From positions 86,705 to 146,990 of the forward strand of contig JAPLGS010000143.1 in the NCBI GenBank assembly GCA_026390015.1: a stretch of 60,286 bases of DNA, read 5' to 3'. The translations under genes were made by a program, and so were the position numbers. The notes beneath the pieces are model-generated. The model ran no database searches, was not told the DNA's origin, and saw nothing but the letters and a program-made list of their open reading frames with translations. Position 1 is the first letter of the stretch. Every line of letters starts with the position of its first letter. Shown here piece by piece: positions 53,032 through 60,164 of this stretch. This DNA is from Chloroflexota bacterium. Its GTDB lineage: Bacteria > Chloroflexota > Anaerolineae > Anaerolineales > Villigracilaceae.

Positions 53032-53766
53032 ATGTCTTCCTCAATTATCGAATTACGCAACGTATCAAAAACTTACTCCACTGCGGCTGGTGACTTTATA
53101 GCGTTAACCAACGTGAACATGAACATCCTCGCCGGGGAGTTTCTTGGCATTGTTGGAAAATCAGGCGCGGGAAAATCTACTTTATTAAATATGATCAACG
53201 GTGTCGATCAACTCTCCAGCGGAGAAGTCATCGTCCGCGCAGATAATGAAAATATTTCAATCCATACCATGAGCGAAGACGAGCGCGCGCGCTGGCGCGG
53301 CAAAAAAATGGGCGTTGTCTATCAATCTTTTCAACTCCTGCCCATGCTCACGCTGATCGATAACATCACCCTGCCAATGGATTTATCTGATAATTACAAA
53401 CCGCGCGAGTCAAAAGAACGCGCCATGCAGCTTTTGCAGCTGATGGAACTCGAGGAACACGCCAATAAATTACCCGCCTTTATTTCTGGCGGGCAGCAGC
53501 AGCGCGTTGCCATTGCGCGCGCGCTCGCCAATGACCCTCCCATTCTCGTCGCGGATGAACCAACTGGCAGCCTCGATTCCATCACGGCCGATCACATCTT
53601 TGAAGTCTTTGAGCATCTCATCACCGACCAGGGAAAAACGATCGTCATGGTCACGCATGATGTCGGTCTGGTCAGTCGCTTCTCGCGCAGTTTGACGATC
53701 GCAGATGGAGAATTGCTTTCGGAATCAATACCAGACACAAAATTAAATCACGGGCGGAAGAAATGA
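53032..53766 (+). CDS. ABC transporter ATP-binding protein (MacB/LolD type)
   Basis: 244 residues. Walker [11 protein letters not shown]-loop 'VYQSFQLLP', signature [15 protein letters not shown], Walker [12 protein letters not shown], and H-loop THD are all intact. LolD/MacB-type ATPases power FtsX-like permeases for lipoprotein, peptide or macrolide export. Next to it are a second ATPase fused to a cyclic-nucleotide-binding domain (overlap ATGA), a 810-aa FtsX permease and an HlyD-type adaptor. Confidence 0.92.
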
Positions 53767-54920
53767 AAGTGCTTCGCGCCAAGCCGATAATTGATTCTGT
53801 CAAAAAGAATGAATCAGCATCTGAAGCCATGATCGAACTACGCGGCGTCGTCAAACGATTCAGCAATGCGGCGGGAGAGTTCACCGTCCTCAAAGGCGTG
53901 GACTTGACCATCGATCGCGGCGAATTTGTTTCTATCGTTGGAAAATCTGGCAGTGGGAAATCAACATTGTTAAATATGGTCACAGGCATAGACCATCCTA
54001 CCGATGGCCATGTAGTTGTGAATGGCTCGGATATTTATACCGGTGTGACCGAAAGCCAGCGTTCCAAATGGCGCGGTAAAAATTTGGGGATCGTTTTTCA
54101 ATTCTTCCAATTATTACCCATGCTCACACTTCTCGAAAATGTCATGCTTCCAATGGATTATGTGGACCTGTATGATTTCGATGAACGTCCCGCGCGTGCG
54201 ATGGAATTATTAAAACTTGTGGGTTTGGAAAAATTTGCAAATAAATTACCCGTCTTGGTTTCAACAGGACAACAGCAACTCGCGGCGATCGCGCGCGCCA
54301 TGGCTTGTGACCCGCCCCTGCTCGTCGCAGATGAGCCGACAGGAAATCTTGATTCGCGTTCGGCTGATACCATCATTCAATTGTTTGAAGGATTTGTAGC
54401 GCAAGGCAAAACCATCGTGATGGTTACGCATGACCCGTCGTTGACATCGCGTACAAATCGCAACATCATCATCTCTGATGGTGAATTGATCAATGAAACC
54501 ATTTCGAAATCATTGCCGCAGTTGAGGCATCGTCATATGCTCGAGTTCACGAAGATCGTGGAAGAGCATAGCTATCTGCCGCATGAGACTATCATCTCGC
54601 GCGATCAAAACATAGATTATTTTTTTATGATCCGCAAAGGTGAGGTGGATGTGGTTTTAGAGGATAAAAAGAAAAATGAAAGTTTGGTCTCGCGTTTACA
54701 GGCTGGCGAATTCTTTGGCGAAATGGAATTAATGCGCGGCGGTAAATCGATTGCCAATGTACGCGCAGGCGATCAACCTGTGGAAGTGCTGGCTCTTCCG
54801 CGCGCAGACTTTATTCGGGTGATGGCTGAATCGCCGGTTACCGCTGACGCGATCAGAAAGACTGTCCACAGGCGGTTGGAAGCTCATAAAGTAGCGGATC
54901 AACGCTCCACAATACCCTAA
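53763..54920 (+). CDS. ABC ATPase fused to a cyclic-nucleotide-binding (cNMP) domain
   Basis: 385 residues. The ABC domain (~22-250) has Walker A GKSGSGKST, Q-loop 'VFQFFQLLP', Walker [12 protein letters not shown] and H-loop THD. The signature is altered: VSTGQQQLAAIARA, in place of SGGQQQR. A C-terminal cNMP-binding/CAP-like domain (~260-375) has 'FFGEMELMRGGKSIANVRA', the phosphate-binding cassette. A pair with the previous ATPase would have one canonical and one degenerate site, with the cNMP domain probably gating. Overlaps the upstream stop by ATGA. Confidence 0.9.
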   Translation: MKVLRAKPIIDSVKKNESASEAMIELRGVVKRFSNAAGEFTVLKGVDLTIDRGEFVSIVGKSGSGKSTLLNMVTGIDHPTDGHVVVNGSDIYTGVTESQRSKWRGKNLGIVFQFFQLLPMLTLLENVMLPMDYVDLYDFDERPARAMELLKLVGLEKFANKLPVLVSTGQQQLAAIARAMACDPPLLVADEPTGNLDSRSADTIIQLFEGFVAQGKTIVMVTHDPSLTSRTNRNIIISDGELINETISKSLPQLRHRHMLEFTKIVEEHSYLPHETIISRDQNIDYFFMIRKGEVDVVLEDKKKNESLVSRLQAGEFFGEMELMRGGKSIANVRAGDQPVEVLALPRADFIRVMAESPVTADAIRKTVHRRLEAHKVADQRSTIP

Positions 54921-57492: not shown

Positions 57493-58617
57493 ATGAAAAA
57501 ACAAATATCAAACATCATTGTATTACTCGTCATTCTCTCCATTGCGCTCTCTGCATGTGGAAATCAACCAGCCACAGCCACGCCTGCGCCAGTGAATATT
57601 GTCTCCTCCAATAATGCGGTGGCGGAAGGACGCTTGAAACCTGTGCAAGGTACCAACCTGTCATTTCAGGTGCGTGGGCTTGTGGAGGAAATTCTCGTCA
57701 AGGCCGGGGATTCCGTCAGCCAGGGAGATATTCTCGCGCGCCTCGCAAACGCGGGCGGTGCCCAAGCGCAGATCGTCGTCGCGCAAAATGTATATGACAC
57801 TCTCATCCGCACTGAAAATGGGAATCGCGCAAATCTATGGCAGGCTTATTTAAACGCGCAAATTGCCCGCGGCGTAGTTGAAAAAACATGGGATGATCTG
57901 AATGTTACTGATATTGAAAATCGTATCGAAGATGATAAAGCCACAGTTGAAGACCGCCAGCAGGATGTGATAGACAGACAGGCTGATTTCGATAAATATA
58001 AAGATCTTGATAAAGATAATTCCAAACGCAAAAAAGCCAAGGATGATCTTGATAAGGCGCGCGCGGCTTTAAATCAGGCGGTGCGCACTCTCGAAGATAC
58101 AACTCGTGAACGTGATGGCGCGCGCGCCGCGTATGATGCCGCGCTTGGTTTGGAAGCCGAAGCGAAACACCAATACGATATCAGCGCTGATGGCCCGAAC
58201 GCAGATCAACTTACACTTGCCAAAGCCAATCTAGAGGCGGCGAAAGATGCGCTTTCCAATTATGTGTTGACTGCACCTTTTGACGGTGTTGTGGCAGATG
58301 TCAACGTGAAACTGGGCGATCAGGTCGGCATTGAAACGCGCGCAATTAGCATTGCAAATTTCAATTCATGGGTCGTTGAAACGACCGACATTACCGAACT
58401 TGAAGTGGTGAAATTAAGCATCGGTCAAAAAGTAACACTTGTGCCGGATGCTTTGCCTGACGTGACTCTCAATGGGATTGTTACTGATATCAGCCAGGCA
58501 TACGTTCAACAAGGCGGCGATATTCTTTACATGGTGCGTATCAGTCTGACAGACAGCGATCCGCGTTTGAAATGGGGTATGACCCTGGAAACAACATTCG
58601 CAGAAATTCCGCAATAA
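57493..58617 (+). CDS. HlyD/MacA-type membrane-fusion lipoprotein
   Basis: 374 residues. Lipobox LSACGN (Cys ~20), then 'EGRLKPVQGTNLSFQVRGLVEEILVKAGDSVSQGDILARL' (in parts), the lipoyl-like hairpin; a long coiled coil (~105-245) rich in Lys/Asp/Ala; a beta-barrel region with 'VLTAPFDGVVADVNVKLGDQV'. It would bridge the FtsX permease to an outer envelope partner. It is last in the MacAB-like group, and 70-100 bases later the riboswitch array begins. Confidence 0.9.
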   Translation: MKKQISNIIVLLVILSIALSACGNQPATATPAPVNIVSSNNAVAEGRLKPVQGTNLSFQVRGLVEEILVKAGDSVSQGDILARLANAGGAQAQIVVAQNVYDTLIRTENGNRANLWQAYLNAQIARGVVEKTWDDLNVTDIENRIEDDKATVEDRQQDVIDRQADFDKYKDLDKDNSKRKKAKDDLDKARAALNQAVRTLEDTTRERDGARAAYDAALGLEAEAKHQYDISADGPNADQLTLAKANLEAAKDALSNYVLTAPFDGVVADVNVKLGDQVGIETRAISIANFNSWVVETTDITELEVVKLSIGQKVTLVPDALPDVTLNGIVTDISQAYVQQGGDILYMVRISLTDSDPRLKWGMTLETTFAEIPQ

Positions 58618-58677
58618 AAGAAGTTCCAACATTTCGCTAAAAGCGATTCGTAATTAGAACATCTGAGTGATTGAATT

Positions 58678-58704
58678 TTGAATTTATTCGTGCAATAATA
58701 TAAT
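58678..58704 (+). promoter_or_regulatory. Likely promoter of the tandem riboswitch RNA
   Basis: TTGAAT (58678-58683) and TATAAT (58699-58704), spacer 15 bases. The start would be ~58711, the first base of the aptamer. Confidence 0.55.
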
Positions 58705-58710
58705 TGCTCC

Positions 58711-58794
58711 GAGAAAGAGCAAACCCGAGGAAACTCGGCGACGCAAAGTTATGGGCCTACCGCTGAACTGAGCCAGGGCCGCCAGACTACCGAC
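58711..58794 (+). ncRNA. c-di-GMP-I (GEMM-I) riboswitch aptamer 1 of 3
   Basis: GCAAACC, stem CCGAG-GAAA-CTCGG with GNRA loop, conserved GACGCAAAG at 58739-58747, then the second stem-loop and the ending CCAGACTACCGA. These are the core features of GEMM-I, which binds cyclic di-GMP (or cGAMP in some variants). Confidence 0.88.
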
Positions 58795-58882
58795 AAAAGC
58801 AAAACCGCCAAAAGACGGTGACGCAAAGCCAAGAGTCTAAAACCAGTAAAAATTTCTGGTCAGGGCCGACCGGCTGACCGAA
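58795..58882 (+). ncRNA. c-di-GMP-I (GEMM-I) riboswitch aptamer 2 of 3
   Basis: GCAAAACC, stem CCGCC/GACGG with AAAA loop, GACGCAAAG at 58819-58827, CCAG...CTGG third stem and GGCTGACCGA end. It abuts aptamer 1 with no spacer. The GNRA loop is less regular than in the flanking copies. Confidence 0.85.
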
Positions 58883-58968
58883 AGGCAAAATCAGGGAAAC
58901 CTGATGACGCAAAGTCATGGGTCTATGGTTACATTTTATTTGTGATCATGATCGCCAGACTACCGAAG
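58881..58968 (+). ncRNA. c-di-GMP-I (GEMM-I) riboswitch aptamer 3 of 3
   Basis: GCAAAATCAGG-GAAA-CCTGATGACGCAAAG (in parts): perfect ATCAGG/CCTGAT stem with GAAA loop and the conserved GACGCAAAG at 58906-58914. GTCTATGG...CAGACTACCGA closes the domain. Confidence 0.88.
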
Positions 58969-58981
58969 AGCAATCTTTTTT

Positions 58982-59012
58982 CATGGATGACCCGTACGCG
59001 GGGTCATCCATG
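58982..59012 (+). terminator. Hairpin after the triple riboswitch
   Basis: Perfect 12-bp stem CATGGATGACCC / GGGTCATCCATG with a 7-base loop, followed by TTTGATATAAAA. A 7-base T-run also precedes it. It can act as a terminator or the expression platform. Confidence 0.65.
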
Positions 59013-59145
59013 TTTGATATAAAAACAGTCCTGATGTTATATTCTGATCAAGTCTTGACAAGATATAATATTTTTGGCGTGAGTGGGTTGTTGCACGTTT
59101 AGGAACTTAGAAATTAAATGCTTGCTTTTTGTACAAGAATTTTTG

Positions 59146-59212
59146 AACCGCAGAGGCGCTGAGTTCGCGGAGAAAACCTCTTAAACTCTGCGCTCTCTGC
59201 GACTCTGCGGTA
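59146..59212. repeat. Palindromic repeat, ACCGCAGAG type
   Basis: 67-bp imperfect palindrome, arms ACCGCAGAGGCGC and GCGACTCTGCGGT with one mismatch. Related sequences of ACGCAGAG units are common intergenic repeats in many bacterial genomes. No coding potential. Confidence 0.6.
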
Positions 59213-59296: not shown

Positions 59297-59902
59297 CTAT
59301 ACAATTTTATAAAGATGTTGCTTTCGCTTCTCAATTTCATCTAACATAGGCTTATAGTTGTTTCTATAAAACGTATCACGCTTGACTAGCAGACCCAAGC
59401 CGGCAATAATGGATATTCCGCCAGCCATTAAAAACACACTGCTGTTTATAGCAAGAGGAAGAATGTAGATACCGCCAATAATAAGTAATAAAATAAACAT
59501 GAGAGACCAATTTGGCATCTCTTGCTTTAATTTTCCAATATCATGATTCAAAGCTGAGATTTCGTTGTCTATTTGATAGATTCTTTGCTGTCGCTCATAC
59601 TCTGCCCTACACAGATTTTCCGCCTTTTTTCTATTTTCCTGTTGATGTTGCACTTGGTCGCCTTTTGAAGCGGCGGGTGTTCTTCGAAGAAACTCATTGT
59701 TATATTGTTCCCTCTTTGTTGGATCTGCCAGAATTTGATAAGCCTCATTGATTTTCTTGAATTGTTCTTCCGCTAGTTTCTTATGCCCCAGCGTGGCAAA
59801 TTTGTCAGGGTGATAAGCCTGAGCCAGGAACCTATAGCGTTCCTTGGTTTCTTCCGTTGTCGCATTAGGAGCGACGCCTAAGATATTATAGAAGTTTTCC
59901 AT
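59297..59902 (-). CDS. DnaJ-domain membrane protein
   Basis: 201 residues. The N-terminal J-domain (~4-68) has the HPD motif in 'LAQAYHPDKFATLG', so it can stimulate an Hsp70. A Gln/Lys/Arg-rich coiled region (~75-130) leads to two adjacent membrane helices (~133-150 and 155-172), then a basic cytosolic tail (KRKQHLYKIV). Function unknown; it may recruit DnaK to the membrane. It is placed about 100 bases after a GEMM-I riboswitch and terminator, hence probably controlled by cyclic di-GMP. Confidence 0.87.
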   Translation of the reverse strand: MENFYNILGVAPNATTEETKERYRFLAQAYHPDKFATLGHKKLAEEQFKKINEAYQILADPTKREQYNNEFLRRTPAASKGDQVQHQQENRKKAENLCRAEYERQQRIYQIDNEISALNHDIGKLKQEMPNWSLMFILLLIIGGIYILPLAINSSVFLMAGGISIIAGLGLLVKRDTFYRNNYKPMLDEIEKRKQHLYKIV

Positions 59903-60002: not shown

Positions 60003-60036
60003 AATAAAAAAGCAGGTCTGGCTAAACCAGACCTGC
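60003..60036 (-). terminator. Intrinsic terminator of the dnaJ-leader riboswitch
   Basis: On the minus strand: GCAGGTCTGG-loop-CCAGACCTGC followed by TTTTTT. A perfect 10-bp stem with U-run, positioned between aptamer and gene; the likely expression platform. Confidence 0.9.
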
Positions 60037-60065
60037 CGAAAGGTGGATAAATAAGGTAGAAATTT

Positions 60066-60153
60066 GGCGGTCTGGCGATCATAATCGTGGCGTACACGAT
60101 GTTAGATCCATGACTTTGCGTCTCTGTCTTTCGACGGATTTGCTATTTTCGGT
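60066..60153 (-). ncRNA. c-di-GMP-I (GEMM-I) riboswitch leading the DnaJ-domain gene
   Basis: Minus-strand GCAAATCCGTC-GAAA-GAC stem with GAAA loop, then GACGCAAAG (60114-60122) and TCATGGATCTAA, an ATCGTG/CACGAT stem, and GATCGCCAGACCGCC at the end. It matches the same consensus as the plus-strand copies. A terminator lies 29 bases downstream and a promoter (TTGCAT-N16-TACAAT, 60165-60192) upstream. Confidence 0.88.
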
Positions 60154-60164
60154 TCTCTAATTTC

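Follow-up and report, generated by a model that had tools for sequence, protein, structure and literature searches.

The plus strand of the window analyzed here carries at 58708-58967 three abutting c-di-GMP-I (RF01051) aptamers, which are rather likely to belong to a free-standing noncoding RNA of ~310 nt and not to the leader of a gene. With its 60,286 bases the window forms the right-hand part of a contig of 146,990 bases from a 4.3 Mb draft genome of a Chloroflexota bacterium, and the end of the window is the end of the contig. The proposed RNA would have a promoter and a terminator of its own and three cores under a shared outer helix (P1), and it would act in trans. By comparing sequences we could demonstrate the three aptamers, edges that look like a promoter and a terminator, a conservation that is limited to this unit, neighbouring genes that change from genome to genome, and the outer helix. 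Taken together, the comparative data favour a free-standing RNA over a gene leader. A fourth aptamer with a terminator on the minus strand, the promoter immediately upstream of the array and the outer helix that closes it were not part of the original prediction and were found in this analysis.

The three aptamers

It was originally predicted that the array consists of three GEMM-I aptamers, and a covariance search of the whole genome bears this out. All three domains lie on the plus strand and exceed the RF01051 gathering score of 35: domain 1 (58708-58794) with 65.0 bits, domain 2 (58788-58881) with 54.1 bits and domain 3 (58874-58967) with 72.2 bits, with E-values of 1.4e-9 to 5.3e-14. Each of them covers the whole 87-position model, and the genome holds 11 RF01051 matches altogether. 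When the window was searched with cmscan only domains 1 and 3 were returned, and domain 2 is taken from the whole-genome search; the probable reason is that cmscan discards overlapping matches of the same clan. The domains do abut without spacers, as predicted; the model matches of neighbouring domains overlap by 7 and 8 nt. The number of cores was also right, with GACGCAAAG starting at 58740, 58820 and 58906, but the intervals between them are 80 and 86 nt and not 84-88 nt. A terminator scan found no internal terminator on the plus strand between the domains of the array. The fold z-score of the array is -4.2, and this value together with the covariance scores and the genus-wide conservation excludes a chance origin.

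Not all domains of the array are under strong selection, given that domain 2 has the lowest score of the three and that the core of domain 1 is altered in one genome of the set (G021), and this counts against a free-standing RNA. The 11-nt P3 tip of domain 1 (GCTGAACTGAG; 58762-58772, plus strand) is invariant in 17 of 17 aligned arrays, and the P3 tips of domains 2 and 3 vary freely across the same arrays. Three of the 41 matches to the domain 1 tip in the genus are one base off the search pattern, and the tip is not preserved in the sister genus. This invariant loop may be a contact site.

Occurrence in related genomes

The relatives used for comparison are mostly draft assemblies. Based on the covariance match list, three abutting matches exist in 17 of 25 genomes of the genus, the window's own genome included, and in an eighteenth (G020) the contig breaks off within domain 2, after the promoter and domain 1. 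A domain 1 marker, accepted with at most one mismatch, was found in 40 of the 57 genomes of the genus, and among the 32 that are highly complete and little contaminated it occurs in 26; a control pattern occurred in none. The 17 of 57 genomes without the marker, some of which are incomplete, count against reading the array as a free-standing RNA.

In the sister genus of the same family the unit of promoter motif, three domains and hairpin is present in two of four genomes (G271 and G335), the middle domain there being recognized from the sequence and from the domain 2 pattern and not as a listed covariance match. Searches with the domain 2 pattern and for covariance matches showed no such array in the other two (G129 and G343). 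Across the class the domain 2 pattern, which served to locate further loci, matches 21 of 396 genomes, many of these matches being ordinary aptamers at 2-3 mismatches. A junction pattern for abutting arrays was applied to the order, and no counts from it are used since its reversed control also matched many genomes. Arrays from other families were chosen among the matches listed and are therefore described without a count.

Promoter, hairpin and limits of the conserved unit

The 5′ edge of the putative RNA is marked by a promoter-like sequence, TTGAAT-17-AATAAT, with an extended -10 box. The -35-like TTGAAT (58671-58676) is part of a longer upstream motif, TAGAACA-nn-TGAGTGATTGAAT (58655-58676), and the extended -10 box (TGC-AATAAT, 58694-58699) follows it after 17 nt, all on the plus strand. 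Both the upstream motif and the -10 box are present in 22 of 22 parsed arrays of the family. The script measured a spacer of 17 nt in 20 of these 22; it is 16 nt in G406 and 22 nt in G271, where a TTGAAA read by hand gives 17. The upstream motif has one exact site in the window's genome and another site with two mismatches. The promoter scan scored the match with 9 of 12, which is modest and counts against the reading as a free-standing RNA.

At the other edge, the predicted 12-bp hairpin at 58982-59012 (plus strand) was found exactly, with 12 pairs and a loop of 7. It is followed by TTTGATAT and is probably the terminator, and with it the 3′ end of the RNA. Across 17 genomes 97.9% of the cells in the hairpin alignment are paired, and four of the 12 pairs are changed on both sides at least once. 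The tail behind the hairpin is in the genus a weak U-run of the TTTGATTT type, a further point against a free-standing RNA.

The mean pairwise identity was profiled over 15 arrays whose flanks are complete; the other two of the 17 run into a contig end and were dropped. At its end the upstream neighbour, the HlyD-type adaptor gene of an ABC efflux operon (57493-58617, plus strand; named from Pfam and synteny), which lies outside the RNA, has an identity of 0.55, and the 28 nt that follow the adaptor stop have 0.04. The upstream motif (TAGAACA..GATTG) reaches 0.88 and the -10 box 0.87, with 0.48 in the spacer between them. Within the RNA the domains reach 0.79-0.81 and the linker 0.75, the hairpin stems 0.82 and 0.79, the hairpin loop 0.32 and the U-rich tail 0.62; past this tail the values are 0.26-0.32. 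Judging from this profile, conservation is confined to the unit that runs from the promoter to the hairpin, and the flanks are not conserved. The spacer is fixed in length and not in sequence, as is expected of a promoter. Transcription would then start from the conserved promoter at ~58703-58709 and end past the conserved hairpin at ~59013-59020.

Directly 3′ of the hairpin there is another promoter-like match (59014-59043, plus strand; 10 of 12) with no gene behind it.

The outer helix

One short outer helix, P1, is predicted to close all three aptamers. Its 5′ strand, ATTGCTC (58703-58709), lies at the expected transcript start and pairs with GAGCAAT (58968-58974) directly after domain 3, both on the plus strand. 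RNAalifold recovered five pairs of this helix unprompted. Within the genus the helix shows no compensatory change, and in four of 16 genomes one or the other of its two outermost pairs is disrupted. In other families the outer strands are different yet complementary, with GGTGCATCC/GGATGCATT in the three-domain array of G518 and AAAGCACTC/GAGTGCTTT in the two-domain array of G514. Over seven loci the cognate outer strands form 47 pairs, whereas 20,000 shuffles gave 2.9 on average and never more than 17; for this count the strands of G432 and G506 were re-anchored by eye. Automatic anchoring had given 1 and 3 pairs for these two because a degenerate first domain lies outside the span. The 5′ strand of G506 makes 8 pairs with the 3′ strand of G432 and 6 with its own. 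Since most outer strands of the GCTC type cross-pair in this manner, it is mainly G518 and G514 that support covariation. The minimum-energy fold contains a local TTGCTC/GAGCAA pairing inside domain 1 that competes with the outer helix in the genus; this local pairing was not found by eye in the arrays of the other two families.

Downstream genes and control in cis

The absence of a plus-strand gene after the hairpin, which had been noted from the beginning, extends to the contig end; the only plus-strand ORFs of at least 40 aa between the array and this end are of 61 aa, beginning inside domain 3, and of 79 aa. The next gene is on the opposite strand, again in agreement with the prediction, and encodes a DnaJ-domain protein (59297-59902, minus strand; PF00226, 77 bits). 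It is preceded by a single c-di-GMP-I aptamer (60063-60154, minus strand; 71.1 bits), and the terminator scan places a terminator between the two (60011-60037, minus strand). This stretch (60154-59297, minus strand) of aptamer, terminator and a DnaJ-domain gene with a hydrophobic C-terminal part is an ordinary riboswitch arrangement, which is also found in G008. Between the array and the DnaJ gene lies an imperfect inverted repeat rich in CTCTGCG / CGCAGAG (59148-59210), which by eye resembles a dispersed repeat.

One possible option is that the array is a conventional riboswitch array, in which the hairpin is a ligand-controlled terminator for a downstream gene and in which the target has here been separated by the inserted DnaJ-domain gene. 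We regard this as unlikely, even though a hairpin with a U-rich tail comes right after the last aptamer and 14 of the 16 arrays with visible downstream sequence share their strand with the next gene. The first gene downstream of the 17 arrays is ruvB in nine, a receiver-ParA gene in four, an MBOAT gene in one and DnaJ on the other strand in two (the window's genome and G008), and in one the contig is cut. Receiver-ParA, MBOAT and DnaJ were named from Pfam, each on a single example, and RuvB was named by eye; the count leaves aside three short ORFs overlapping the start of ruvB. Two of the products, receiver-ParA (with a BcsQ match above the cut-off) and the MBOAT acyltransferase, suit control by c-di-GMP. 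It was reported that c-di-GMP-I riboswitches do not keep to homologous genes (PMC2864571), and for this reason variable neighbours alone prove little.

The commonest neighbour speaks against such control, because ruvB has its own in-frame box of the leaderless type: a TATAAT, 6-7 nt and an in-frame ATG were found in 27 of 27 genomes. Four of these have no array (G004, G012, G015 and G024, with neither the domain 1 marker nor an array at the sites seen), and in G004, G015 and G024 ruvB directly follows the adaptor gene. Control of ruvB by the array is therefore disfavoured; that ruvB adjoins the array in both genera examined could still reflect a link that escaped detection. The receiver-ParA genes also have boxes of their own by eye, TATACT-like in G000, G008, G002 and G019 and weaker in G022 and G016, with an AGGAGA-type site in all six. 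In several genomes a second hairpin is seen by eye between the array and ruvB, and the array hairpin itself lies outside all aptamer strands and overlaps none of them. In G518 the triple array is followed by a terminator-like stem (by eye) and then, at a distance of 178 nt from the array, by the start of a TPP riboswitch, so that the array there is unlikely to be the leader of the gene that comes next. A regulated gene in the same transcript, as a cis-regulatory riboswitch would have, was found neither in the window nor, judging from the ruvB boxes, in the relatives.

As a separate observation, the TATAAT spacing at ruvB in the 27 genomes points to a leaderless mRNA (for example at locus L112 in G000).

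The suggestion that the RNA is an orphan left by gene loss was not upheld by synteny in relatives, where the neighbours vary. This candidate is disfavoured by the promoter box of ruvB and by the position of the DnaJ-domain gene, which separates the array from receiver-ParA in G008 and, as the contigs suggest, probably also in the window's genome. One contig of G008 carries the DnaJ gene, its aptamer, receiver-ParA and ruvB, and another carries the array and the DnaJ gene, so that an insertion or rearrangement of DnaJ between the array and receiver-ParA fits better than the loss of a target. The window's genome has receiver-ParA and ruvB on contig C106, and its gene order is likely the same.

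Binding site and ligand

Analysis of the aptamer cores indicates that GACGCAAAG and ACCGA are present in all three window domains; these contain what we take to be the equivalents of the ligand-contact bases A47 and C92 of Vc2. At the Rfam position that presumably corresponds to G20 in Vc2 numbering, the window has A, A and G in domains 1, 2 and 3. A similar distribution is found in the 24 three-domain arrays that a hand-tuned pattern could tally (G219, G432 and G514, with two domains parsed, were left out): domain 1 has A in 20 arrays and G in the other 4, domain 2 has A in all 24, and domain 3 has G in 21 and C in 3. Single aptamers, 45 in number and taken from 66 loci chosen mostly for high score, have 39 G, 5 A and 1 T.

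This pattern raises the alternative of a mixed-ligand sensor, in which domains 1 and 2, with their A, bind 3′,3′-cGAMP and domain 3 binds c-di-GMP. Published effects at this position agree with such a sensor. In a Geobacter aptamer the A20G change is described as shifting selectivity from cGAMP to c-di-GMP (PMC6456294), and an A variant of a D. acetoxidans aptamer is described as having gained affinity for c-AMP-GMP (PMC9481103). The position, which is equivalent to Cd1 G11, is however presented as a selectivity factor and not as a hard filter (PMC9262584).

The enzymes of the window's genome also argue against a sensor of this kind. Among its 13 GGDEF matches eight have GHxxGD, one GHxxGN, none GHxxGS and four are unscorable. 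We take the serine of GHxxGS to be the Hypr position, and no Hypr-type cGAMP synthase was seen among the nine scored motifs of this draft genome. We consider the mixed-ligand sensor rather improbable and infer that c-di-GMP with two weaker sites is to be favoured. A GGDEF domain with GHAMGN, as against GHxxGD in eight others, was observed at locus L127 (G000, contig C34).

For the free-standing RNA the following picture emerges. The transcript would fold into three c-di-GMP-I cores without spacers, held by the single outer helix P1, and could bind up to three cyclic dinucleotide molecules. Domain 3 keeps the G that favours c-di-GMP, and the A in domains 1 and 2 should weaken or broaden the choice of ligand. 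Because no expression platform was seen that overlaps a core and no target gene was found, a role in trans appears most likely, which may be the buffering or titration of c-di-GMP, or a ligand-dependent stability or partner binding of the RNA.

Upstream genes

Another hypothesis is that the RNA is a 3′ element of the ABC efflux operon, that is, the tail of the transporter mRNA, where it would control termination or stability. It would fit the position of the adaptor gene, which is the upstream gene in 16 of the 17 genus arrays (in the remaining one it is not visible), in the same direction and ending 34-101 nt before the array. Yet the promoter motif lies between the adaptor and the array, the sister genus has a different upstream gene (a guaB-like ORF, named by eye), G379 keeps the array with a permease upstream and no adaptor, and five of six further genomes examined have the adaptor without the array. 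We therefore hold this reading to be very improbable. Least credible of all is a decaying relic of a duplicated riboswitch, to which the missing target gene in the window and the lowest score in the middle domain might point, since the promoter, the three cores, the outer helix and the hairpin are conserved across the genus and into the sister genus and the hairpin shows compensatory changes.

Two features of the operon itself were noted. Upstream of the permease and adaptor genes an ABC transporter ATPase is fused to a cyclic-nucleotide-binding domain (53763-54920; PF00005 and PF00027), and at locus L051 (G017) the adaptor gene upstream of the array is split into two or three reading frames.

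Comparison with known RNAs

By its sequence the array is filed as c-di-GMP-I aptamers and not as a cis-acting riboswitch; it is merRNA-like in kind, a likeness drawn from descriptions. From the RF01051 riboswitch it differs in the shared outer helix, in that no gene or expression platform is seen, and in that two of its three domains have A at the G20 position.

The original prediction had called three aptamers in a row unusual, which is roughly right: a review of 2022 counts 12 c-di-GMP-I triplets against 347 doublets and lists the class with multiple expression platforms (PMC9481103). Triplets were nevertheless already known, and one of them, Bc3-5 of B. thuringiensis, was tested and is reported as three independent riboswitches upstream of an operon (PMC4759541). 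Bc3-5 resembles the array in having three c-di-GMP-I aptamers in a row. Its elements are however described as independent, with terminators, in the cspABCDE 5′ UTR, whereas the array has a single closing helix and lacks both a gene and internal terminators; a terminator with each aptamer is at odds with both the domain overlaps and the terminator scan. In the literature on tandem c-di-GMP-I riboswitches covered by our search, a single helix closing three cores was not found.

The merRNA of Bdellovibrio bacteriovorus is a noncoding RNA with a c-di-GMP riboswitch and, like the array, has no conserved ORF downstream, and its authors call the reservoir role yet to be validated (PMC3627812). The relatives of the window's genome likewise share no single first gene downstream, ruvB being the commonest. 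As described in that report, merRNA has one riboswitch in 445 nt with no conservation found outside Bdellovibrio, whereas the array has three domains in ~310 nt and belongs to Chloroflexota (PMC3627812). The GEMM-Ib cGAMP riboswitches of Geobacter are reported with A at nucleotide 20, as in domains 1 and 2 of the array (PMC6456294), which differs from them by the G in domain 3, by the lack of any Hypr-type GGDEF among those seen and by the lack of a downstream gene. The dual-aptamer glycine riboswitch is presented as having, like the array, adjacent aptamers with at most one platform (PMC9481103), but it belongs to another ligand class, and glycine arrays are described as regulating a gene in cis.

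What is new about the array is that a self-contained unit, three cores and one closing helix come together with conservation throughout the genus. More tentatively, the array could represent a class of RNAs in Anaerolineales that are free-standing and multivalent for cyclic dinucleotides, with two or three cores under a shared helix and their own promoter, and that work as buffers or ligand-gated small RNAs; the conserved A/A/G would give a graded or mixed response, and the loop of domain 1 might contact a partner. We would put this generalization at clearly less than an even chance.

Riboswitches are usually regarded as mRNA elements. If a conserved RNA consisted of nothing but aptamers, it would follow that RNA can serve as a cell's means of holding or counting a second messenger, and merRNA is the sole such case for c-di-GMP that our literature search returned. 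A genus-wide family, together with related architectures elsewhere, would make the reservoir idea directly testable.

Other multi-aptamer loci were seen along with the array. At locus L057 (4085-4343; G000, contig C134) two aptamers, separated from each other by a strong terminator, lie upstream of a predicted protein gene, and doublets of this type are also present in G003 and G021 (L059 and L060), the one at L060 being called c-di-GMP-I-GGC. Cobalamin and TPP riboswitches were found near multi-aptamer c-di-GMP-I arrays of other families, at L202 (1402-1615) and L201 (3627-3738).
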